DNA from: Chryseobacterium aquifrigidense
Lineage (GTDB): Bacteria > Bacteroidota > Bacteroidia > Flavobacteriales > Weeksellaceae
Length of the DNA: 64,000 bases
NCBI RefSeq assembly: GCF_006716485.1
Contig: NZ_VFPD01000001.1
Coordinates: 2,896,008-2,960,007 of the forward strand
Direction of reading: 5' to 3'
Shown: positions 28,287 through 62,224 of the stretch, one piece after another
Layout: each line of letters begins with the position of its first letter
How positions within the stretch are numbered: position 1 is the first letter of the stretch
Notes under the pieces: generated by a model
Databases searched by the model: none
What the model was told of the DNA's origin: nothing
Seen by the model: the letters and a program-made list of their open reading frames with translations, nothing else
Translations under genes and position numbers: made by a program

Positions 28287-28907
28287 TTAATAATTTTTCA
28301 CAGTAATATGATAACAGCTCTGTTGCTTCTCTTTGATATAATATATTCTACCAGCCTTCTCATAATACTTTAAAACTTTCTCCAGCGCTACTTCCATCTT
28401 CGGATTGTATTTCAGAACATTGTTAAATCTGACATAGGAAATATCAAAAGAATTACCATAATTGTGAGAACTGATCCCTAGTGAGGCATTAGAATTCACT
28501 CTTCTCAGCCTGCATTGGTCTTCAAGCGTTCTGGTAATGGACGAAACAGTAAATGTACCTCCTTTGGTATCCTTACTGAACTTGGACCCTATTTTCTCCA
28601 GAGTGGTTTTTCCCTTTGATACCATATAAGCTCTGCTGTAATCAAGCCTCTGAACGTGATATCCTTTCCCTGATTTTTTTATTTTGTGGAATTTACCGCT
28701 ATTGATGTATTTCTGTACTGTTTTGGAATCTTTCAGTAGCTGTACTCCAAAACTCTTTGATGCATCAAGATGAGATTTATAAAGTGGCGTGGGTTCAACC
28801 TTCAGTACAGTGGCAAGATCGTAGCAGGGAAAAGCTTTTTTAGCTGCCTGCGCATAATGTAAACTATAAATAAAAGGTACAAAGACCACACAAAAAAACT
28901 TTCTCAT
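28287..28907 (-). CDS. DUF5715 family, M15-like peptidase fold protein
   Basis: A 206-residue secreted protein with a signal peptide (VVFVPFIYSLHYAQA). The C-terminal half has SSITRTLEDQCRLRRVNSNA, then SSHNYGNSFDISY, the SxHxxGxxxD zinc motif of M15-type D,D-carboxypeptidases, and a final His in CYHIT. This fits DUF5715, probably acting on peptidoglycan stem peptides in the periplasm. Activity is inferred from the preserved metal ligands. Confidence 0.82.
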   Translation of the reverse strand: MRKFFCVVFVPFIYSLHYAQAAKKAFPCYDLATVLKVEPTPLYKSHLDASKSFGVQLLKDSKTVQKYINSGKFHKIKKSGKGYHVQRLDYSRAYMVSKGKTTLEKIGSKFSKDTKGGTFTVSSITRTLEDQCRLRRVNSNASLGISSHNYGNSFDISYVRFNNVLKYNPKMEVALEKVLKYYEKAGRIYYIKEKQQSCYHITVKNY

Positions 28908-46595: not shown

Positions 46596-48254
46596 TTAAT
46601 TTAGATTTTCATATTTAAAATAATTTCTATAATTTCGCGGCATAGAAACAGACCCATGGTGTAGCGGTAACACTACTGATTTTGGTTCAGTCATCTGGGG
46701 TTCGAATCCCTGTGGGTCTACATAGCAGGAGAAATGATTATAATTATCGTTTCTCCTGTTTTTATTTTGTGATAATCCATTGTTAATCTGAAAGATATAG
46801 TGAGCTACAGCATTAATTCTTATGGTTCGATAATGATTTTTGTAAAATTCAAGTTTTTCAGGAAAAATCGAACCGATAATTTGTCGCTTGACTGCAATAT
46901 CTCCTTCTGTATAGACTTTCCAGATATTTGTAAGCGTTTCTAATGCTTTTCCTAGTAGCTTTGGTATATCTACTTTATTTTCTATCGGCTTATCATTTAA
47001 TTGTGTTTCCAGTTTTTCAATCTGCTCTTTATATTCTTTTTTTATTTCAAGATATTCTTCATCGGTGATTACTTCAGAAAGCAGTTTATTTCTCGCCAGA
47101 GAAATCCTTAAATTCAACCTATCTATCTCATCAGATATCTTCTTTCTTTCATCCTGTGGGGCTTTTATAAACTTCTGATAGTTATCCAGAAATACTTTTT
47201 CTATAAGCTTCTTTGCAGGCTCAGTCATTTCCAATTGCTTTAATCCTTCTTCAAAAACCGAATTGACCAATTCTGCTCTATGGCGGAATCCACAGGCTGC
47301 ATTGCAATGATAATAGTAGTATCTGTTATTTCTCCCTTTCGAAGCGCTTGCAGTAATATTTTTTCCACATTTTGGACATACCAAAAAACCCCGTAATGGA
47401 AAATGCTCACCGGAAAGAATTTTAGTATTAGGTCGCTGAAGTCTCCTTTTACCATCCAGTATTTCTTGCACTTTGTTGAATAGCTCCTCACTAATTAAAG
47501 CTTCATGCTGACCCTCTACAAAATGTGCCTCTTCATCTTTGTGTTTTTCTAAAAATACTTTCCCATAGTATATAGGATTTCTTATTGCCACATGAAAAGA
47601 TGTTCTGCTCACCTTTTTAATTGTTAATTCATTGACTCTTTTTCTGATTTGATTAGAGGCCAATACCCCTTTTGCAATCTCATTAAAAGCCCAGTTCATT
47701 GCTGATGCTTCAGGTTCTTGCAGTACAATATACTTTTCACCATTTTCCCTACTTTTATTAGCATAGCCAAATGGTGCTTTTCCCATAACCCTTCCTTCTT
47801 TTTTTGCCCTACGCATTCCATAAAACACGTTAAGCGCCCTTCTGTCATTTTCGACTTCAGGCGCTGCCAAATAAATTGCAAGCATCATTTTATTTTCGGG
47901 GATAGAAAGGTCTAAAGGCTGGTCAACAGCCTGTGGTTCTATTCCCAATTTTGCAAGTGTACTTATCATTTGATATGCATCCCCAGCATTACGGCTGAAA
48001 CGGTCCCATTTAGTAAATAGAATAAGGTTTGTCTTACAACTTTTCTTTTTAAGTGTAGTTAAAAGTCTTATCCAGCCGGGGCGGTTAAATGATTTTGCGG
48101 AATGGTCTTCGTAGATTATTTGTCCAACAGAGATATTGTTAGATGAACAATATTTTTTTAACCGATCCTCCTGATCTCTTTGTGAATATCCTTTGTCTGC
48201 CTGTTCATCAGTAGAAACACGGATGTATAAATCTGCTACCTTCATAATTTTCAT
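46596..48254 (-). CDS. Large serine recombinase (site-specific)
   Basis: A 552-residue serine recombinase. Resolvase domain: DLYIRVSTDEQADKGYSQRDQ with the nucleophile Ser, LILFTKWDRFSRNAGDAYQM and a long helix. Then the recombinase domain (ANKSRENGEKY..., about 170-270), a Cys zinc-ribbon CPKCGKNITAS...CNAACGFRHR and a C-terminal coiled coil. Residues about 512-535 (VDPQGFEPQMTEPKSVVLP..) are the antisense translation of tRNA-Gln. Such integrases insert mobile elements, here probably beside the tRNA. Confidence 0.9.
   Translation of the reverse strand: MKIMKVADLYIRVSTDEQADKGYSQRDQEDRLKKYCSSNNISVGQIIYEDHSAKSFNRPGWIRLLTTLKKKSCKTNLILFTKWDRFSRNAGDAYQMISTLAKLGIEPQAVDQPLDLSIPENKMMLAIYLAAPEVENDRRALNVFYGMRRAKKEGRVMGKAPFGYANKSRENGEKYIVLQEPEASAMNWAFNEIAKGVLASNQIRKRVNELTIKKVSRTSFHVAIRNPIYYGKVFLEKHKDEEAHFVEGQHEALISEELFNKVQEILDGKRRLQRPNTKILSGEHFPLRGFLVCPKCGKNITASASKGRNNRYYYYHCNAACGFRHRAELVNSVFEEGLKQLEMTEPAKKLIEKVFLDNYQKFIKAPQDERKKISDEIDRLNLRISLARNKLLSEVITDEEYLEIKKEYKEQIEKLETQLNDKPIENKVDIPKLLGKALETLTNIWKVYTEGDIAVKRQIIGSIFPEKLEFYKNHYRTIRINAVAHYIFQINNGLSQNKNRRNDNYNHFSCYVDPQGFEPQMTEPKSVVLPLHHGSVSMPRNYRNYFKYENLN
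46650..46720 (+). tRNA. tRNA-Gln (anticodon TTG)
   Basis: 71 bases fold into a cloverleaf: acceptor AGACCCA/TGGGTCT, D stem GTGT/ACAC, anticodon stem ACTGA/TCAGT with loop TTTTGGT (anticodon TTG) and T loop TTCGAAT. CCA is not encoded. It overlaps the 3' part of the recombinase gene on the other strand. Confidence 0.95.
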
Positions 48255-48539: not shown

Positions 48540-48791
48540 TTATTTAAAAGCTAGTATTTTCCGTCCACAAAAGAATCGGAGGTTCCACCTTATGTACATT
48601 TCAATTGGATTATTATCCATCTACAGCCATGAAGAAATTTTAATCAATCTCTTCCTTTATTCTGGTAAAGTAAATTTCTCCTGATTACACTTATCATCTA
48701 ATCAATAGTGGAGTCTCTTGCTTTATTCCCAACATTTCTCTAAAGCGTTTGTTTCTTCTCTTATGTATTTTCTTTCCATATCATACATATA
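48540..48791 (-). pseudogene. Decayed IS66-family transposase remnant
   Basis: One frame reads FYMYDMERKYIREE, later DNNPIEMYIRWNL and CGRKILAF, interrupted by several stops. DNNPIE followed by IR and GRK is the hallmark of the IS66 transposase C-terminus (usual DNN-x-IENAIRP...GRKN-LF). The remnant begins where the guide-RNA-like segment ends. Confidence 0.55.
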
Positions 48792-48883
48792 AAAAGAACC
48801 CACGCCGTTGTATATACAGTAAGTATTTAGTGAGTGTTTCAAGACCTCACCCTGCGGGTGTACAAGCACCCTCTTATTTTTTT
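48787..48883 (-). ncRNA. Candidate single guide RNA of the Cas12f-like protein
   Basis: Immediately after the Cas12f-like stop, the minus strand folds into GGGTG-CTTGTA-CACCC (48856-48871) and GTGAG..CTCAC (48830-48850). Loop bases TTGTA of the first can pair with TACAA (48808-48812), a pseudoknot like those of Cas12f/TnpB guide scaffolds. The scaffold ends ATACAAC, similar to Cas12f repeats ending GCAAC. A possible guide GGCGTGGGTTCTTTT (48792-48806) and a T run follow. Position and folding are seen; function is inference. Confidence 0.6.
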
Positions 48884-49978
48884 CTATCCAATAATTAATT
48901 CAATACCTGCTTTTGCAGCTTTGTATCTTATTTTGGTCTGCAACTCATAATAATTCCAGTTTCGAAGCACAAATTCATTATCTTTTGCAATACCGATTTT
49001 GTCTTCCTGATTTTTAAGAATAAGTGTTCCTGCCTGCTGTTGGATGCAGAAATCTATAAGTTTCCGACTGTACACATGAAGCCTATGACTTACATATCTG
49101 CTTTCCAAATTCTCTGTTTTATACAATGCTTTCTGTTTCCGTTTGGCTCCTTTTCCTGAACGAGCATAGGTTATACCATCTTGAATCCTTTTTTGACTTG
49201 CCTGAATGGCAAGCCTGCGATATAAAAACTCCTCTTTTGTGCCAATACTGATTCGCACATTGCCAGCTTTTGCTACAATAGGATGCTCCAAAGACAGGGA
49301 AGCTTCTGCGATGATTTCAGGTTGTAAAAGGTATTTTCCTTTTTCAAATTCAAATACTGCGAGCCAATAGATTTTCCCGTCTTTAAGTTGGATCTGTGAT
49401 GTACAAAGCTTTATTTCACCCCTTAAAAAACGTTCCATTATCAGGCGTTTATCGGAGAAGTCTCTCCCTAAATACGTTTTAACCGGGATAGCGAACATAT
49501 TGAAGCAAAACGCTTTCTTTTCAGGATCATACTTCATTTTGCTGATGCATTTAACCGGAAGTGGAATGGGAATATCTTTTTTAAAATTCCTCAAAGATTT
49601 TAAGCCCTGCCAATAGTCAGCTTTGTTCTTAGAGAAAACGGATTGAATCGTATTGTTCAGGCTTCCCAGAATATCGGTAGGGATTTCTCCTTTGAACCGG
49701 TCAAAAACCGTGCGTGCCGTTGTGCTTGTTTTCGAACGTGTAAATATTCCCATTTGATCTTTGTTTGCATCAGCCAGCTTGTATTGGATTTCTTCGGTGA
49801 AATAAAAGAAATCTTTAATCATTTCCTGAACATATAGATGGGAAACGATGAAATTAGCCGCCCTGAAACATCGGTTCTGATAACGGTAGAGTTTTTCCCA
49901 CACCTCCTTTTTCTCAATGAGAGGAACATCGATCAACAGCTGAATTTTTCGGGTAAGTGTAATTGTTGATTTTTCCAT
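48884..49978 (-). CDS. Cas12f/TnpB-like protein without RuvC catalytic residues
   Basis: 364 residues from the ATG at 49978, one base after the sigma stop; the frame upstream overlaps the sigma gene and is not used. Recognition/wedge part: KEVWEKLYRYQNRCFRAANF, FAIPVKTYLGRDFSDKRLI, GEIKLCTSQIQL. RuvC part: RISIGTKEEFLYRRLAIQ, SGKGAKRKQKAL, VSHRLHVYSRKLIDFCI, FVLRNWNYYELQTKIRYKAA. The usual GVDLG (RuvC-I) reads VAKAGN and the RuvC-II IEDL reads LKNQ, so Asp and Glu are lost. The protein stops at GIELIIG before the zinc ribbon and RuvC-III. It should bind DNA through RNA without cutting. Confidence 0.85.
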   Translation of the reverse strand: MEKSTITLTRKIQLLIDVPLIEKKEVWEKLYRYQNRCFRAANFIVSHLYVQEMIKDFFYFTEEIQYKLADANKDQMGIFTRSKTSTTARTVFDRFKGEIPTDILGSLNNTIQSVFSKNKADYWQGLKSLRNFKKDIPIPLPVKCISKMKYDPEKKAFCFNMFAIPVKTYLGRDFSDKRLIMERFLRGEIKLCTSQIQLKDGKIYWLAVFEFEKGKYLLQPEIIAEASLSLEHPIVAKAGNVRISIGTKEEFLYRRLAIQASQKRIQDGITYARSGKGAKRKQKALYKTENLESRYVSHRLHVYSRKLIDFCIQQQAGTLILKNQEDKIGIAKDNEFVLRNWNYYELQTKIRYKAAKAGIELIIG

Positions 49979-49979
49979 T

Positions 49980-50795
49980 TCATAGAAGGATTTGAGAGGT
50001 ATTTCGATTTTGTAGATATTGATAAGCATATAGAAACTCCCGATGGACCTGCTTTTCAGAAAGTTTAAGTTCCTTGGCAATTACTATGAAAGAAGATTTT
50101 TGTTCGACCCTTCTTTTCAAAATATCAAGTTGTTGACTACTGAGTTTTTCTGACTGTTCCTTGTTATCGAAAGCTTTTTCCTGTGGCTGTTCAAAAGAAC
50201 TTCTATTAAGAATTTTCCGAAGATCATCTATCGCTCTGTTTACTTCATTACTTATGGCAGTCACACTGCTGCCCATTGCATCCGCAATGGATTTGTACTG
50301 AAATCCATATTCAAGGCAAAGCTTAATCAAGTGTCTTCTTTTGGGACTTATTACATTTAAAACCCTATTAACTTCATCAAAATCTTTTTGATCGGACTCC
50401 TGACGGATAAGATGCTCTTTATCTTGCATGGGATCATAACCGATAAGATAATCCTGATAATTCTCAAAACGTTCAAGGGAATCAACTAAGCGGGTGAATT
50501 TATTTTTTGGAGCATTGAAATAAGATATACAGTCTCTTTTCAAAACAAACCGTAAAAAGCCAAGAATATGATTGGGAGTTTCAATAGAATCACGGTGTAA
50601 CCAGAGTTTAAGGAAAGTATCCTGCACAAGTGTCTCCACTACAAAATCATCCTCAAGCATTTGTTTTCCAATCCAGAAAAGAAGTCTTTTGTAACGTAAA
50701 TAGATATGTTCTAAAGAGGTCGGATTACCTTTTTTCAGTAGTTCATATAGCTGATAATCGTTCAATATCCGGGTTGCAGAGTCTGTTCTTTTCAT
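49980..50795 (-). CDS. ECF-type sigma factor linked to the Cas12f-like gene
   Basis: A 271-residue sigma-70 family protein. Region 2 (residues 15-95): LEHIYLRYKRLLFWIGKQML, VQDTFLKLWLHRDSI. Region 4 (135-196): ISPKRRHLIKLCLEYGFQYK and IADAMGSSVTAISNEVNRAI. A C-terminal extension (200-271) carries a second HTH-like stretch, IVIAKELKLSEKQVHREFLY. It precedes the Cas12f-like start by one base (stop and start read TGAAATG), so the two are translationally coupled. It probably directs RNA polymerase to sites bound by the RNA-guided partner. Confidence 0.9.
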   Translation of the reverse strand: MKRTDSATRILNDYQLYELLKKGNPTSLEHIYLRYKRLLFWIGKQMLEDDFVVETLVQDTFLKLWLHRDSIETPNHILGFLRFVLKRDCISYFNAPKNKFTRLVDSLERFENYQDYLIGYDPMQDKEHLIRQESDQKDFDEVNRVLNVISPKRRHLIKLCLEYGFQYKSIADAMGSSVTAISNEVNRAIDDLRKILNRSSFEQPQEKAFDNKEQSEKLSSQQLDILKRRVEQKSSFIVIAKELKLSEKQVHREFLYAYQYLQNRNTSQILL

Positions 50796-50923
50796 AGCAG
50801 TATATTTTAGCTAAATTATTGCTGGAAGAAACTGCTTAGATCAATAAGATTAATTCACTACATCACCCATAATACTAACTCACCACATTTTGCCCAAAAG
50901 AAAGGCGTGGAACTCAACTTATA

Positions 50924-51031
50924 GCATTAGAGGCACTGGTATACCCGTGTACGATAAGAGAGCCCACGCCGCGGTCGTGAGCAAATTTACTTATCTTCTC
51001 GTACACATAAAAATTACCAGTTTTCTAATGC
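50924..51031. repeat. 108-bp imperfect inverted repeat in the sigma leader
   Basis: Left arm GCATTAGAGGCACTGGTATA then CCCGTGTACGATAAG; the right arm is its imperfect complement ending CCAGTTTTCTAATGC. Matching blocks are GCATTAGA, ACTGGTA, GTGTACGA and ATAAG. The loop holds GCCCACGCCGCGGTCGTGAG. Confidence 0.65.
50956..50970 (-). promoter_or_regulatory. Candidate RNA-guided target site in the sigma leader
   Basis: The minus strand reads GGCGTGGGCTCTCTT. The candidate guide GGCGTGGGTTCTTTT matches 13 of 15, and both differences are guide-U opposite target-strand G, so all 15 can pair. Flanking bases differ from the guide RNA. Oriented toward the sigma gene. Confidence 0.5.
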
Positions 51032-51093
51032 GAGATTCTAAGCAATTGCCTCAATATTTTAATTCTATTGGAATAATTGCATTATATTATCTA

Positions 51094-51125
51094 CAAATAT
51101 ACCAAAATTATTTATGTAATCCAAA
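51094..51125 (-). promoter_or_regulatory. Promoter reading toward the sigma-Cas12f operon (TTTG-N20-TATATTTG)
   Basis: On the minus strand TTTG at 51122-51125 and TATATTTG at 51094-51101 fit the Bacteroidota consensus. It overlaps the palindrome at 51112-51137. Confidence 0.65.
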
Positions 51126-51137
51126 TGGATTACATAA
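51112..51137. promoter_or_regulatory. Perfect 11-bp inverted repeat, operator candidate
   Basis: TTATGTAATCC-aaat-GGATTACATAA lies on the -33 box of the minus-strand promoter and upstream of the XRE gene, a likely site for that regulator. Confidence 0.6.
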
Positions 51138-51151
51138 AAGTTATGATTTTT

Positions 51152-51163
51152 TGCAAAATTGCA
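51152..51163. promoter_or_regulatory. Short palindrome TGCAA-AA-TTGCA before the XRE start
   Basis: Perfect 5-bp arms, 2 bases before the ATG at 51166. Could be an autoregulatory site. Confidence 0.35.
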
Positions 51164-51165
51164 TT

Positions 51166-51408
51166 ATGGCTGGACTCAACGAAGAAGATATATTGCTAAA
51201 AAATAAAATTGCTGATAGAATTAAGTTTCTTCGAGCGAATACTGGTTTGTCTCAATCTGAATTTTCTAAAAAATACGAAATTGACAGGCAAATATTAAAT
51301 CGTTGGGAAAGTAAAAACAATAAAAGGGGGTTGACAATTTATACAATAGCAAAATTTTGTCATCTCATAGGAATTTCTTTAAAAGACTTTTTTGATTTTG
51401 AAGCATAA
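51166..51408 (+). CDS. Small XRE family regulator
   Basis: 80 residues from the ATG at 51166 (MAGLNEEDILLKNKIADRIK). Helix-turn-helix at 14-70: IKFLRANTGLSQSEFSKKYEIDRQILNRWE and TIAKFCHLIGISLKDFF. The frame is open further upstream from 50890, but that part covers the inverted repeat and is not protein-like. Divergent from the sigma-Cas12f operon, so it may repress it through the 51112-51137 palindrome (inference). Confidence 0.8.
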   Translation: MAGLNEEDILLKNKIADRIKFLRANTGLSQSEFSKKYEIDRQILNRWESKNNKRGLTIYTIAKFCHLIGISLKDFFDFEA

Positions 51409-52940: not shown

Positions 52941-53013
52941 TAATCATTATCTTTAGATAATAAGACTTATGGGGCTTCGATTTTCACTCATTGGCTTAAT
53001 AAACAAATTAAAA

Positions 53014-55390: not shown

Positions 55391-58300
55391 TTAATGTTTA
55401 TCTAAATTACAACCTCTACACAATACCTGTCCATTATCTGGGTTTCCTCTTCCTCCTTCTCTTTTTCTTTTTATATGATCTACCTGAGTTTCAGTCTTCT
55501 CAGGAACTACACCTTTTTTAGACTGCTTTGCTGGTGTAGTTTCAATACCACACATTTCACATTTTACTTTTCCATACTTTAATTCAGACTTTTTGATAAC
55601 GACTTGTTTACCTGCCTTTGTGAAATCCTTACCTTCTCTTCCAATCTTATTAAGTCTTGCTGCTCTTGCTTCATTCTTTTGAATTGCTTTAACTGATTCG
55701 AAAGCTCTTAAAGCAGGAACTTTTCCTCCTTGTACTGTCAACATTCCTTCAGGCCCACCTCCAATGGATAGGGCAATAGTACCCCAATCAAGGGCTCCAT
55801 TTGCCACTTTTTCTTTGAAGGATTCCTTAGGAACCCCTGTAAGCAAAGTCAGTCCACCATCTCCATCAACTACATATTTATTCCTTACAGCATCATTCGA
55901 GAAAAAGTTTGCTGTTCTCACCACATTATTGGAAACAGCAGCCCTTAGACTATTAATACCTCCGCCAATCATCTCCGCAAATTCTACAGGATCACTTGGA
56001 AGACTAACCTCATTAACCTTTTTAGCCTCCAAGCCTTCCAGTTCCCTTGCATCAACAACTCTGTTTTCTGAGAAATTATAATGTGATTGATAGTCGTACT
56101 GTTCACTTAATGGATCAGCATTAAAGAACCTCGCCATTCCGGCATCATAGTTCCTCCATCTGTAAGAACTCCATTTAGTGTCAATCTGATTTTCCTGTCC
56201 TTGTGTAGAGTATCTATAGCTTGGGGTTACTGTACCATTAATATTTAGATCTCCCCCAAACTCAAGCCCGAAAGGATAGTAATGATTGGTCCTGTCTATT
56301 TTCAGGCTTCCGGAAGCATCTTTATAATACGCCAGTCTGATGTTTCCTACCTGATCAGTATAGTTGTAAATATACAGATTTTTAACAAAGTCATAATAGC
56401 CTTCTGCAGTAGGAACAAAGCTTAATATGTCATCAGTATATTGAAATCCATCCAGATAATCAGTTTTGCTGACGGCTTCCGTCTGTCCTCTTCCTGTTCC
56501 ATAGGTATAGACTTTTCTCAGTTTGGCTCCGGCAGCATTATACAGGTATTTTGTATTGACATTGTAGGTCTCAAAATCATGTGTATTATATAATTTATTA
56601 AATTTTATATAGTTGGGAAGATTAAGATAATTATAGTCTATCTGGAGCATCCCTCTATCCTCATGGGTAATCATATTTCCGTTGCCATCATAAGGAATTG
56701 CGGTTGATACAGAAGCCGGATAGCCGGCATAGTTACTTGTAGCATCACTTACCGTATTCACCCTGTTTCCGGTATAAGTATAGGTGAGATCGTCAATCTG
56801 CTCTGCTCCAAAATTTTGCAACAATCTATTTCTTTTCAGACTTTGGATATTACCATTTACATCATAGGTAAGACTTTCATTAAAATAGTTATTCTTTGGA
56901 AGGGCTGCATTGGGTTCAGAATAAATTCCATTTTTGAGCCTGTCCAATCCATCGTACTGATAATTATATCTTCTAAGCATCCCACCATCAGCAGCCTGCC
57001 AGTCTATTTCTGCAATATTCCCATTGTATTTTCCGGTAGAAACCTCCGAATAAACAGGATTATGGTATTTAAGCTCATAGGCAAAAAGTTTTCCATTTAG
57101 GTTAGTCGGATCATTCACTTTCGATAGCCAACCTCGGATATTGTAAGTCTGGTCTATAGACTGTAAAGGAGTACCTGTAGTATTTCCTGTTTTTTTATTG
57201 GTAAGCTGTCCCAGATCATTGTATGTGTTTTCTACTAATAGTTCTTCTGTTAGACTGTTCACCTTATGATAGAGCTTCAGCAGTCTTTTCTGGTCATCAT
57301 ATACAAATCTTTCTTTGATAAACACCTCCGCATCTGCACTTCCTTTTTTGTGATAAGTATAGCTTTCATCTACCGCGCCGGAAAAATCAAGTTTAAATTC
57401 CTTTTTAGTATACCCCCCTAAATGATTCCAGCTTTTTTCACTTACTTTTTCCCCTTTAGTGTTGTAGTAGAAATAGGTTTTCGTCCAGTTATCATCTTCA
57501 ATGTTTTTTACATAAGCTGCTGTTGACAAACCTTGGGTATTGGCACCTCCGTTCAGAGCCCTGTCTTCGTTCACTACATATTGATCAAGGATTTTTGCAG
57601 GTGGAAACTCTTTAGTATCCCTTGGGTAAGAGTCATAGTAATTAACCGTTAAAAGCGTCGTAAAGCCGGACAGAAAATTATTGGTGTAATATACAATGAA
57701 GCCATTTTTATCAAACCCATTGGCTGTCTGGCTTTCACTGACCACCTGAGAAGCAAGTGGACTTTGCATTGAAGCTCTTTCTCCACCTGTAATAAGTCCG
57801 GTATAGGCAACGCGACCAAATGCATCATACTTGGTCAGCAGCCACAGCCCTTTATTCTTCAGGTTCACATCCTGGGTAAGCACCGGGCGGTCGGCAGCAT
57901 CGTACACCACAGATTCCCAATCGTCTCTTCCAGGCAGTCTTTTTTCAACCTGCCTGTCCAATCCATCATATCGGTACTGGTAACATAAAGTGTTTACAAT
58001 ATCTGTGGTAACAACATTGCTGTTTTGCTCAATTTTTTTTACCGCCAGAGGGGGAATTACAAATGCTTTTTGTCCGTATTCATTATAGACATAATAGGTA
58101 TCAACGTTTTGTGTTCCGTCCGTCCGACGTACCAGCACCGTTTCACCACGTCCGTTCTGAAACTGGATAACCGGAGTTCCATCTTCATCGGTTACCGAAT
58201 TTTTATATAATGTTCCAGCACCATAAAATTCACTGCCTGGAACTATGTATACAGAGGAAACAGTTTTTTTATCTGTTCCTACCGTTGTAGTTACTGTATT

Positions 58301-58789
58301 GGTGATAAATTTCTTTACTTCTGAGCCTTGATTTACTTCATATTTAAGCTTTTGGGTATGTCCGGATGCCATTTTCCATGGTTCACCCGGCTGAGCTACT
58401 TGTTTTACCCTGTCCAATGGAGAATTTTCAATCTCTTTTTCTGTATACGCATTGGTGACACCGTAATAAGAATTAGCCACAGTTTCATTCATAATCCCGG
58501 TATGAATGGCAGAATTGAGAGTATTGGCAGGAACAGGAAGAATATCTTTAACCTGTCTTCCAAACCCATCATACGTAATAGGAGTCACCAGATCCTTTCC
58601 GGTAGTGGTAGCTTTTACACTAACAATCTGCTTAGGTCGTCCCAAGCCGTCAAAATAGGTAATAGTTTCAGTTTTCTTACTGCAATCACCACTCAGGCAG
58701 GTTTTAGATTGGATGTAATTTTCGGTTGTGCTTTGTGCATAGGTCATCATCGCTGTAAACAGCAGACCTAAAAATTTTATTTTTTTCAT
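55391..58789 (-). CDS. Rhs/DUF6443 toxin with C-terminal HNH nuclease
   Basis: A 1132-residue secreted protein. Signal peptide MKKIKFLGLLFTAMMTYAQ, DUF6443 (about 30-150, ITYFDGLGRPKQIVSVKA), many YD/Rhs repeats, an Rhs core near 860-935 (YYPFGLEFGGD, RWRNYDAGMARFFNADPLSE), and a variable C-terminus ending CEMCGIETTP...QVDHIKRKREGG...NGQVLCRGCNLDKH, an HNH/zinc nuclease (CxxC, D-H, CxxC). Likely a contact-dependent DNA-cutting toxin. Seven bases after the partner gene. Confidence 0.9.
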   Translation of the reverse strand: MKKIKFLGLLFTAMMTYAQSTTENYIQSKTCLSGDCSKKTETITYFDGLGRPKQIVSVKATTTGKDLVTPITYDGFGRQVKDILPVPANTLNSAIHTGIMNETVANSYYGVTNAYTEKEIENSPLDRVKQVAQPGEPWKMASGHTQKLKYEVNQGSEVKKFITNTVTTTVGTDKKTVSSVYIVPGSEFYGAGTLYKNSVTDEDGTPVIQFQNGRGETVLVRRTDGTQNVDTYYVYNEYGQKAFVIPPLAVKKIEQNSNVVTTDIVNTLCYQYRYDGLDRQVEKRLPGRDDWESVVYDAADRPVLTQDVNLKNKGLWLLTKYDAFGRVAYTGLITGGERASMQSPLASQVVSESQTANGFDKNGFIVYYTNNFLSGFTTLLTVNYYDSYPRDTKEFPPAKILDQYVVNEDRALNGGANTQGLSTAAYVKNIEDDNWTKTYFYYNTKGEKVSEKSWNHLGGYTKKEFKLDFSGAVDESYTYHKKGSADAEVFIKERFVYDDQKRLLKLYHKVNSLTEELLVENTYNDLGQLTNKKTGNTTGTPLQSIDQTYNIRGWLSKVNDPTNLNGKLFAYELKYHNPVYSEVSTGKYNGNIAEIDWQAADGGMLRRYNYQYDGLDRLKNGIYSEPNAALPKNNYFNESLTYDVNGNIQSLKRNRLLQNFGAEQIDDLTYTYTGNRVNTVSDATSNYAGYPASVSTAIPYDGNGNMITHEDRGMLQIDYNYLNLPNYIKFNKLYNTHDFETYNVNTKYLYNAAGAKLRKVYTYGTGRGQTEAVSKTDYLDGFQYTDDILSFVPTAEGYYDFVKNLYIYNYTDQVGNIRLAYYKDASGSLKIDRTNHYYPFGLEFGGDLNINGTVTPSYRYSTQGQENQIDTKWSSYRWRNYDAGMARFFNADPLSEQYDYQSHYNFSENRVVDARELEGLEAKKVNEVSLPSDPVEFAEMIGGGINSLRAAVSNNVVRTANFFSNDAVRNKYVVDGDGGLTLLTGVPKESFKEKVANGALDWGTIALSIGGGPEGMLTVQGGKVPALRAFESVKAIQKNEARAARLNKIGREGKDFTKAGKQVVIKKSELKYGKVKCEMCGIETTPAKQSKKGVVPEKTETQVDHIKRKREGGRGNPDNGQVLCRGCNLDKH

Positions 58790-58795
58790 TTGTGT

Positions 58796-61700
58796 TTACT
58801 GCTTATAGTTATACTTGAATTCTTTAACGACCTTATAGCTGTACGTTCCAGCGTTGTCTCTTTCCCTTACCTGAACCTGTTTCAATCGATTAGCAGTATC
58901 ATAAACATAAAGTTCTCTTTTTCCTGATGGGGGTGTTATGGTCGTTACCCCTACCAAAGGATTATAGGTATATTTGGTCGTCATTCCAACGGGCTGAAAA
59001 GCATCCAGAGCCAATAAGAGTTCAGCTTCTTTGGTGGGATCAACAGCATCTTCATTGGATTTGGTTACAATAGTACTGATCATCCCTTCTACCTGGCTAT
59101 ATAGTGCACCTACAATTTTTGCAATCGGTCTGGTTTTGTTATATCCCCAAACTATACTTACCGGAGTACCGTCTTTCTCCCTGTATTGAAGAATATTTCC
59201 TTTTTCATCATATTTTTCATACGTGACATCCTTAGAGGAAACAGTAGGGTTTAAAGTATCATACGAATATTCAGACAGAGGAAGCATTAAGTTTCCGGTA
59301 ACTGCGTGAGGCAGAGCCGTTGGATAAATAGTTTCTTCCCTGGAAGTCACTTTGGTGATGCTGTTTGCCGTCTGCTGTGTCTGGGTTTCCAATGGAATAC
59401 CCACCATGTTTTTACCAATCATCAGCTGGTTGTTTTTCTCATGGGCGTACTGATATGTTTTGCCCGCAGAAGTCAGATCAGGGAAAATCGTTTTCTCACT
59501 GGTCAGTTGATGATGTTTGGGATGGGCGTAGAAATACTGGGTTTCCGTTTTCATGGCAGTCCCGTTCAGGTAATCTATCGCTTTCTGAGATTTCAGGTAC
59601 TCAAAACGGGAAATATTCTTATACTGCATAATGTCAAGATTATCCAGTTGATCAGCATAAGTCATTACTGTTCCTATACCTTGCCCGAAACAAATATCTT
59701 TATAAGTGGCAGTTTGGTTATTAGCTCCGGGATTAATGCAGTTTTTATATCCGTCAAATGCTGTATAGTGATGTGAATGGCTGGCACTACAATAGGTGTA
59801 ATCCATAGTTCTTACAACATCCTCTGCTGTGCAGGTTCTTGTTACATTTTGCGAAACCGGATTATCATAATTTTTTCTGATCGAAAAACCATCTACCTGA
59901 TATTTGCGGCTGTCATCCTCTTCATAGTTCATTTCAACTGTACGAACCAGATTATTTCCGCTGTCCAAATATTTTGTCAGTTTCTCTTTTCCGTTATTCC
60001 ATCCAAAATTGGTCAGCACAGAGTTTCTGATATTGTTTCCATAGATCACTTTACCAAAATCATCCGACTCTGTTGAATAATAATGGATGATATTTGATTT
60101 TCCCTCTACAATTTCCTGTACCGTTTTATAAAATACATTGGGATGGGTCGCAAAGAGCTGATTGATATTGGTTGAAGTGATGGTATAGTATGGGAACCTC
60201 TCTACTCCAGTGGGAAAGCCTCCGCCATTATTCCCCGGATTAGGAGTGGTACTACATGTCCTTGTATAGTACAGCTGTTCTTCAAATTGAGGCTCTCTTA
60301 ATACAGTAGCTTCTGTATTCTGTTCACCCAGATCATGGTAAACAAAATTTCTGGTCGAAGCCACTCCGTTTTCGGTAGTGTCCACAATTTTAGCAATCCT
60401 TAACCCACCAATAGGTACCTCTCTGTCTCCTCTTACTTCAAGCGCTTCAGTATAGCTTGCTGCTGCCTCTGCCTGTACGCAGAGAAAAAGTGTTGTAAGA
60501 TTTAGAGTGAGTACTTCGTTTTTGGAAACCATTGCATAATAGGCATAGGGGGAGGGAAATGTAAGGGAAGTGGTTGGGCTTGTCATCATGCCACTGGATG
60601 TTTTTTGATATAGCGTAACACTTTCTCCATTGGCACGTTTAAGATTAGCAACAGCTCGGTGTTTACCGGCAACCTCCCATTGGGAATCACAAGCATCACT
60701 ATTGAACCATGCTCCTCCACCTATGGTGATCTCCTCATTTTTAACGGGTATAAACGTAGTTGAATTAGTTACCTGCGGACCGCTGCTTCCTTTCTCTGCT
60801 CCAATCTGAACACCCGTTTTCTTTTCAGGAATAAGCACAACATTCTTTTCTACGGATGTATTATTTTCGTAGAAAAATTCTGAATATCCTTTAGTCGGAT
60901 ACGTAATCTTTTGCAGTATTCCGATAGATGTTTTAGAAGGATTAACACTTCTCATAGAAGATTGGTAGCCGCTCCAATTTATGATTTCTATAATTGAAGG
61001 GATCAGATTGGTATTATTTGTAGCGCCATTGAAATACCCCCAGTCATCCCTGCCGAATGAAAGTCTGGGTGGGAATTGGTCAGGCTGGTTATATTGAAAA
61101 CTGTATACACTGCCTGCCACACTATCAGAAACAGAATTCAGAAACAATCGGTTATTAGAGGTTAAGGTATAATTTAAGGTAACATCATTGATAATACTAT
61201 TATTGATCTTTTTGGTGACTTTTTGCAATCGCTTGTAATCCGCACTTCCTCCAGACTGGAAGTAATCAAATATAATTTCGCCATAGGAAGGGTTATTACT
61301 GTATATTCTTTTAATCTGCTTACCATTGACCGTCTGGTTGTGGCTTATCAGTTCGCTGACCTGCGGGTATCTGATAAATGCAGGGTTTCCGCAGGAAGAC
61401 AACATAGGTCCTCCATTAGGGCTCGTATAGGATAAAGTCTGTGACTGGCTCATGGTGGCTGTATATCCGCCATCCACATTTTCAATAAATACAGTTTCTC
61501 CGGTAGAGATATCTTCAATCTTTGTCAGATACCAGGCTGTGGTAGAAATACTGATCAAAGAATGTCCTGCACCAGCAGTACGGTTGGAAGTGGATTCTTT
61601 ATCTGTAAAATAGTATTTGGTTCCATTATCAACAGTTATGGTAAATGAATCTCCACCGCTCACCCCTTCAATAATGACATCTTTTTGAGAATAAATAACA

Positions 61701-62224
61701 GGAATTCCTTTCTTGTCAAACACAAATTTGATTTGCATTCCACCAAAGTTAGCCATATATAAATCCTGCTCTGTATCTACATTATCATTGGAAGCATCCT
61801 GAAAAAATTGCATGGCAATAGGATTATTAGGCCCTATATCATCAAAATTGGTCGGAATAGAAACATTAGATAGATTGTTTTCATCCGGAAGATCACGGAT
61901 GACTCGTGTAATCACTCCTCCTGAAACCATAGTCCAACCGAGTCCAGTAGAACCGTTCATATCATCTACTTTGATTCCATTGGAAAAATAATTAAGTCTG
62001 ATGGGAATAGTAATATTTCCGGCCGCAAAGGACGTTACAGGAATATCTACATTAGCATTTCCTGTAAACAAACTTACCGGAAGGTTTCCAAAGGAGCCCA
62101 GTTTATAGGACTCCGCTGATGGTGGGATGATATTCGGAAGGGTGGATGATTTGCTTCCTGTAGTTTGTGCTAATGCTGTTCCAAGGGACAAGCAAAAAAA
62201 CAAACTGGTTATATTTTTTTTCAT
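58796..62224 (-). CDS. Large Rhs-associated partner protein
   Basis: A 1142-residue secreted protein with a signal peptide (SLFFCLSLGTALAQ). N-terminal IPPSAESYKLGSFGNLPVSLFTGNANVDIPVTSF and GNITIPIRLNYFSNGIKVDD, then YD-repeat-like stretches to the end (GKRELYVYDTANRLKQVQV). This is the usual upstream partner of Bacteroidota Rhs toxins, perhaps building a shared shell. It starts 7 bases before the Rhs gene. Confidence 0.85.
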   Translation of the reverse strand: MKKNITSLFFCLSLGTALAQTTGSKSSTLPNIIPPSAESYKLGSFGNLPVSLFTGNANVDIPVTSFAAGNITIPIRLNYFSNGIKVDDMNGSTGLGWTMVSGGVITRVIRDLPDENNLSNVSIPTNFDDIGPNNPIAMQFFQDASNDNVDTEQDLYMANFGGMQIKFVFDKKGIPVIYSQKDVIIEGVSGGDSFTITVDNGTKYYFTDKESTSNRTAGAGHSLISISTTAWYLTKIEDISTGETVFIENVDGGYTATMSQSQTLSYTSPNGGPMLSSCGNPAFIRYPQVSELISHNQTVNGKQIKRIYSNNPSYGEIIFDYFQSGGSADYKRLQKVTKKINNSIINDVTLNYTLTSNNRLFLNSVSDSVAGSVYSFQYNQPDQFPPRLSFGRDDWGYFNGATNNTNLIPSIIEIINWSGYQSSMRSVNPSKTSIGILQKITYPTKGYSEFFYENNTSVEKNVVLIPEKKTGVQIGAEKGSSGPQVTNSTTFIPVKNEEITIGGGAWFNSDACDSQWEVAGKHRAVANLKRANGESVTLYQKTSSGMMTSPTTSLTFPSPYAYYAMVSKNEVLTLNLTTLFLCVQAEAAASYTEALEVRGDREVPIGGLRIAKIVDTTENGVASTRNFVYHDLGEQNTEATVLREPQFEEQLYYTRTCSTTPNPGNNGGGFPTGVERFPYYTITSTNINQLFATHPNVFYKTVQEIVEGKSNIIHYYSTESDDFGKVIYGNNIRNSVLTNFGWNNGKEKLTKYLDSGNNLVRTVEMNYEEDDSRKYQVDGFSIRKNYDNPVSQNVTRTCTAEDVVRTMDYTYCSASHSHHYTAFDGYKNCINPGANNQTATYKDICFGQGIGTVMTYADQLDNLDIMQYKNISRFEYLKSQKAIDYLNGTAMKTETQYFYAHPKHHQLTSEKTIFPDLTSAGKTYQYAHEKNNQLMIGKNMVGIPLETQTQQTANSITKVTSREETIYPTALPHAVTGNLMLPLSEYSYDTLNPTVSSKDVTYEKYDEKGNILQYREKDGTPVSIVWGYNKTRPIAKIVGALYSQVEGMISTIVTKSNEDAVDPTKEAELLLALDAFQPVGMTTKYTYNPLVGVTTITPPSGKRELYVYDTANRLKQVQVRERDNAGTYSYKVVKEFKYNYKQ

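Follow-up and report, generated by a model that had tools for sequence, protein, structure and literature searches.

In Chryseobacterium aquifrigidense, a mobile island carries an ECF sigma factor, a nuclease-dead Cas12f (dCas12f) and a guide RNA. As judged from the sequence evidence described below, this module probably acts as an RNA-guided transcription activator with four sites in this genome. The window, i.e., the whole stretch of 64,000 nt that was analysed, corresponds to positions 2,896,008-2,960,007 of the forward strand of contig NZ_VFPD01000001.1 (assembly GCF_006716485.1). The locus was compared with 80 related loci from Chryseobacterium, Epilithonimonas, Kaistella, Elizabethkingia, marine Flavobacteriaceae and others. 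Identity to these relatives ranges from 82 to 93% in the first four genera and from 60 to 66% in marine Flavobacteriaceae and others. The features discussed are listed in Table 1.

Table 1. Features of the sigma-dCas12f locus. Positions refer to the window, except for the last row.
Feature	Position	Strand	Basis
Large serine recombinase	46596..48254	-	Pfam Resolvase/Recombinase/Zn_ribbon_recom
tRNA-Gln (TTG), likely attachment gene	46650..46721	+	
Small conserved island ORF, 53 aa	48291..48452	-	83-91% identity, matching place in L002, L003, L006
Guide segment GGCGTGGGTTCTTTTTATAT	48787..48806 (3' end approximate)	-	Directly after conserved scaffold end
Guide-RNA scaffold GAGGGTGCTTGTACACCC...GTATATACAAC	48807..48873	-	Kept in 78/80 related loci; hairpins, some covarying pairs
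Nuclease-dead Cas12f (dCas12f), 364 aa	48884..49978	-	phmmer 9n9c_A; 30-relative alignment; Foldseek
ECF sigma factor, 271 aa	49980..50795	-	Pfam Sigma70_r2/r4; phmmer to 9n9q_C 'RpoE'
T-tract after terminator-like helix	50903-50896	-	
Terminator-like helix, 3' half GAGTTCCACGCC (5' half = target)	50915-50904	-	
Structured leader RNA (model R1), contains target	50896..51053	-	
Own-operon target: G50970 (TAM position) + GCGTGGGCTCTCTTAT (50969-50954)	50954..50970	-	
Divergent XRE/Cro-type HTH regulator	51166..51408	+	Pfam HTH_3 E 1.8e-6; start codon inferred
Mobilisation/relaxase-like protein, 393 aa	51759..52940	-	Pfam Relaxase E 3.6e-4, under curated cut-off
Four leader targets in the genome	C1:826218, 1582641, 2946961 (= window 50954-50969), 3202839		

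A single base (49979) separates the TGA stop of the sigma gene (49982-49980) from the ATG of the dCas12f gene at 49978, the stop codon of which ends at 48884. The sequence-only reading had placed the two genes one base apart, as they are, and had also spoken of a sigma factor fused in operon; the two are separate genes, not one fused gene. The sigma protein features sigma-70 regions 2 and 4 (Pfam, E 6e-7 and 5e-7) and an HTH-like C-terminal extension beyond region 4. Searches of solved structures using phmmer matched residues 14-265 of this protein to 9n9q_C, named 'RpoE' (E 3.8e-80). The same searches matched the full length of dCas12f to 9n9c_A, named 'Nuclease-deactivated Cas12f' (E 1.2e-159, about 65% identity), and also to 9n9m, 9n9o and 9n9q. 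Since both match partners in 9n9q, the sigma factor and dCas12f are orthologues of two partners in one complex. In sequence, the solved dCas12f is that of locus L055 from Flagellimonas (Allomuricauda) taeanensis; the release date of PDB entries 9n9c and 9n9m is December 2025. The sequence-only reading had mentioned reports of sigma-associated dead Cas12f homologues in Bacteroidota, and such systems are indeed known there.

Pfam searches revealed only weak traces in dCas12f (OrfB_IS605, E 0.13; the first 20 of 60 positions of TNB, E 0.056), in keeping with a divergent, C-terminally truncated member. In alignments with the active Cas12f 9nzo, the RuvC-I Asp is replaced by S227 and the RuvC-II Glu by K322. 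S227 is invariant in 30 relatives, none of which (0/30) has a Glu at the RuvC-II position. The dCas12f sequence ends ahead of the zinc finger and the RuvC-III Asp, so that none of the three catalytic residues remains; the first two losses had been noticed from the sequence at the outset, while the third had not been listed. The YYELQ region, which had been described as kept, is indeed retained. The best Foldseek matches are the dCas12f-gRNA-DNA and dCas12f-gRNA structures (9n9m and 9n9c). The AlphaFold model is of low confidence (mean pLDDT 57), and claims on the fold consequently rest on the similarity to solved structures and not on the model. Broken or partial dCas12f copies occur in some relatives (G130:C28, G145:C23 and G144:C1:1470850).

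The folded, guide-like segment initially seen right after the Cas12f-like gene is conserved beyond chance. A scaffold of 66-83 nt, featuring conserved hairpins and some covarying pairs, is located directly 3' of dCas12f in 78 of the 80 loci, and its 3' end is TATACAAC or close to it. The sequence after the scaffold differs among loci, as expected of a guide. Guides start with (G)GCGTGGG in 64 of the 78 relatives; the other 14 carry other spacers, including TTGTGGGATAYACGCTAACA in F. taeanensis and neighbours. Comparison of these other spacers with their own loci gave no convincing self-target, and no guide self-match was found in L055. The match to the target GCGTGGGCTCTCTTAT is 16 nt long in many marine species, while Chryseobacterium guides match the target over about 10-11 nt and continue with T's. 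In the window, 10 bases match (one being a wobble), followed by more wobbles and mismatches; the guide features a C-to-T change at seed position 8, plus a T-run. This limited match counts against the activator reading. The scaffold is single copy, and no second guide-RNA copy was found in this genome.

The exact 16-mer target occurs four times in the 5.13-Mb genome, in all instances within a leader. The TAM G followed by the 10-base seed (GGCGTGGGYTC) identifies six sites in the same 5.13 Mb, and the reversed control none. Four of the six are the conserved leaders, and one falls in the guide gene itself. The sixth (window 28786, + strand) is antisense within gene 28287-28907 and was set aside. 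Besides its own leader, the guide thus has three further leader matches elsewhere in the genome. The site at 50956-50970, singled out in the sequence-only reading, coincides with the conserved own-operon target, which is located in the same orientation some 160-175 bp before the start codon of the sigma gene. The system presumably requires a 5'-G TAM, and a G precedes the target in this genome; SusCD-type genes likewise have an upstream genomic target with a 5'-G.

The four targets are followed by the sigma-dCas12f operon, one operon with a 194-aa ORF and two SusC-SusD-S9 peptidase operons, the last two serving nutrient uptake at the outer membrane. All four have the orientation of the downstream operon, which is the direction of the guide, and a divergent HTH gene is located about 200 bp on the other side of each. 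Pfam confirms the assignment of the downstream genes as SusC, SusD and S9 peptidase, and of the divergent genes as HTH. In the window, the mechanical ORF of the XRE regulator spans 50890-51408. Similar arrangements were found in most of the 24 related genomes searched. In these genomes, leaders lie at +430 to +900 before SusC in most cases, and at +170 to +240 before the sigma-dCas12f operon; some precede other ECF sigma genes, and divergent HTH genes flank many further leader targets. ORFs of 191-194 aa directly follow several leaders (for instance L102:8259-8843 and L101:7836-8411) and recur elsewhere (ORF194); the one member checked has no Pfam match. In several leaders of dCas12f-bearing relatives (L290, L292, L293, L295, L297, L305 and L307), GCGTGAGTTC replaces GCGTGGGCTC, a difference that could set which operons a guide reaches.

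The leaders containing the target share a conserved, RNA-like structure. In an alignment of 49 leader sequences, 99.2% of the cells in helices P1-P4 are paired (35-48% in slid controls), and double changes are numerous. A second pairing partner of the target strand, GGCGTGGGCTC, is GAGTTCCACGCC, which lies about 45 nt downstream; 99.8% of the cells are paired here (34-55% in slid controls). Compensatory changes occur in three pairs of this terminator-like helix, as in GGTGTGG/CCACACC (L179) and GACGTGG/CTACGTC (L172). The terminator-like helix shares this strand with P4, so that only one of the two can form at a time, and mean energies with each state forced are -50.6 and -49.2 kcal/mol. The T-tract holds 6.0 T per 8 nt, compared with 2.5 expected. 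The leader looks like a terminator-type switch. The leader stretch of five leader loci, compared with 4227 Rfam models, gave no match at E values up to 1.

An upstream promoter-like box, TAnnTTTG, is present in 46 of the 49 leaders (3.6 expected), and the target lies about 110 bp downstream of it. By eye, a palindrome similar to AAGTTAC-n6-GTAACTT overlaps the box in many leaders, such as L184 and L182, and is changed symmetrically in L185 (GCTAC..GTAGC). The palindrome is possibly an operator for the divergent XRE protein. A second leader subclass (L244-L283, <107 bits) is not located near SusC. Seven of its loci have response-regulator-like genes after the leader and mostly HTH/excisionase-like ORFs upstream, a setting that looks like that of integrative elements.

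The structure of the leader raises an alternative at the RNA level, in which the guide RNA, alone or together with dCas12f, base-pairs with GAGTTCCACGCC of the nascent leader and causes read-through, DNA binding being secondary. Such pairing is conceivable because the guide mimics the 5' half of the helix: its letters are those of a strand almost invariably paired in the 49 leaders, with compensatory changes; the helix is followed by the T-tract; and the match of Chryseobacterium guides stops near the helix length. We nevertheless consider antitermination unlikely, as the 16-nt match of marine guides includes CTTAT and extends past the segment able to pair with GAGTTCCACGCC, guides of the F. 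taeanensis type do not match the terminator-like helix, and the orthologue has been solved with DNA in a partial R-loop (9n9m).

It is still less likely that dCas12f bound in the leader mainly blocks transcription from the upstream promoter, in a TldR-like manner, with the sigma factor acting elsewhere. The distance between the TAnnTTTG box and the target would indeed place a bound complex in the path of transcription. Yet the unit includes a sigma gene in tight linkage, the orthologue of this sigma factor is found in the same solved complex, and repression of the module's own operon would need no sigma factor.

Leader and module differ in distribution, an observation that argues against the activator reading. 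A covariance model detects the leader in 66 of 120 family genomes, and dCas12f is present in 24 of the 120. SusCD-type leaders keep the target sequence in genomes that lack dCas12f, and genomes with dCas12f show no enrichment of the exact target (15/28 non-self leaders, compared with 17/22 SusCD-type leaders without dCas12f, in small sets with kinship ignored). After later additions, the latter figure is 20/27. Since the exact target is no commoner alongside dCas12f, it is not kept by the guide alone; its retention in the absence of dCas12f indicates that the leader is conserved for reasons of its own, which the guide turns to use. Of the 80 sigma-dCas12f operons, 58 have the leader in front of them, among them the F. 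taeanensis operon and some with other guides. Self-targeting is therefore common but not universal, and the 22 relatives with no leader detected before the operon also weigh against activation.

Activation through the four leader sites remains the reading that we favour. By orthology to the solved complex, we infer guide loading, R-loop formation, polymerase recruitment and activation. dCas12f would bind the RNA made just downstream of its own gene; a 5'-G TAM and a short guide (a 10-base seed, up to about 16 nt) would then direct R-loop formation at GCGTGGGCTCnCTTAT. The partner sigma factor would recruit RNA polymerase, and transcription would start downstream, away from the TAM. The idea put forward from the sequence at the outset, in which a complex bound to DNA through RNA recruits a sigma factor and RNA polymerase, is thus predicted both by the orthology to the 9n9q partners and by the guide matches at four leaders. 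Each of the four sites has a divergent XRE gene on one side and, on the other, an operon read in the direction of the guide. The self site would provide positive autoregulation of the sigma-dCas12f operon, and the others would serve two SusC-SusD-S9 peptidase operons and one further operon.

As the target is positioned inside the leader, we hypothesize that internal initiation bypasses the promoter and the terminator-like helix of the leader. A more comprehensive view, which we put forward tentatively and to which we give somewhat less than an even chance, is that the guide of this island-borne, RNA-guided sigma factor targets the very strand that a widespread switching leader uses in both exclusive helices and that could therefore hardly mutate. 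Internal initiation might thereby bypass the XRE-flanked promoter and the terminator, turning on the module itself and several host SusCD operons together.

The island spans about 6.4 kb. Homology to loci L002, L003 and L006 starts at 46646, at the tRNA-Gln gene, and ends near 53,000. Within these limits are found the serine recombinase, the 53-aa ORF, the sigma-dCas12f module, the XRE regulator and the relaxase-like gene. The recombinase is 95% identical in L002 and L003, and the relaxase-like protein is 67-92% identical in L002, L003, L004 and L006. In L003, L004 and L006, conservation is lost between 50,828 and about 51,350, the segment with the leader. At its 3' end, the recombinase gene overlaps tRNA-Gln in antisense, and part of the C-terminus of the protein is therefore encoded by the tRNA sequence. 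Near the right end of the island, no common stretch of at least 9 bases that could represent an att repeat was found; this is tolerable, because a serine recombinase that uses a short core could do without one. The plasmid records searched gave no match to the module. Next to the island, at 55391-62224, are encoded two large proteins of 1132 and 1142 aa that look RHS/YD-repeat-like by eye.

Least likely of all is that the guide once matched the leader and that the island copy is now non-working, its conservation reflecting horizontal spread: broken copies in some relatives (G130 and G145), self leaders that have drifted from the guide (L015, L016, L021-L026 and L046) and the seed change and T-run of the window guide would fit decay, but both reading frames are intact in the window, invariant residues are retained across 30 relatives, and TAM plus seed single out four leaders with almost no other match.

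Active Cas12f proteins (Al3Cas12f 9nzo, CnCas12f1 8hr5 and AsCas12f 8j12) belong to the same fold family, as indicated by sequence and Foldseek. Unlike them, dCas12f lacks the RuvC catalytic residues and the zinc finger and has a sigma partner, and a single guide unit is found in place of a CRISPR array. Type V-F CRISPR-Cas12f immunity was ruled out, since the catalytic residues are absent and there is a single guide unit. We know of no sigma partner of TldR proteins. These dead TnpB transcription factors (Wiegand et al. 2024, as cited in PMC13418256) resemble the present module in being RNA-guided, nuclease-dead and borne by mobile elements, and in having host surface-protein genes as targets. 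They differ in that TldR is a TnpB homologue described as a flagellin regulator. Terminator-type leader RNAs, such as attenuators and riboswitches, likewise form two exclusive helices of similar energy, one of which is followed by a T-tract. In contrast to these, the switching strand of the leader described here doubles as the DNA target matched by the guide, and the leader matched no Rfam family. To our knowledge, it has no known ligand.

The closest relative is the dCas12f-sigmaE system of F. taeanensis (PDB 9n9c, 9n9m, 9n9o and 9n9q). RNA-guided transcription by dCas12f-sigmaE has reportedly been described by Hoffmann, Sternberg and colleagues (bioRxiv, 2025). As the core mechanism is already known, the locus itself is unsurprising; what may be new is that a conserved guide has a switching leader RNA as its target. 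The locus adds a candidate regulon, in which one natural guide would serve four sites, including its own, through one conserved non-Rfam leader. Should transcription starts map inside the leader, RNA-guided initiation would, in a natural setting, be superimposed on an RNA switch acting in cis, and a mobile element would be reprogramming outer-membrane uptake genes of its host. This leader RNA family would also gain a first functional handle.

Both proteins are orthologous in the two systems (dCas12f 65% identity), the gene order is the same, and the same scaffold RNA lies directly 3' of dCas12f. F. taeanensis likewise features a G before the target, SusCD targets and a leader RNA before the operon. 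The sequence-only reading had set the present locus apart by its island and its leader target; the island and the match to its own leader stand, while the leader is not specific to this locus, as the same leader precedes most sigma-dCas12f operons (see above). At SusCD loci, the F. taeanensis-type guide, which carries TTGTGGGATAYACG in place of GCGTGGGYTC, matches a site lying about 260 bp downstream of the leader target, the spacing in Allomuricauda and F. taeanensis being 259-289 bp. The TTGTGGGATAYACG target (L155:801, L159:1182, L160:1092, L162:978 and L164:819) is apparently half of a hairpin, for instance AATCCCAAGG..TTGTGGGAT. Unlike the F. taeanensis system, the module described here combines one guide, matches at four leaders, including its own, and an island at tRNA-Gln.
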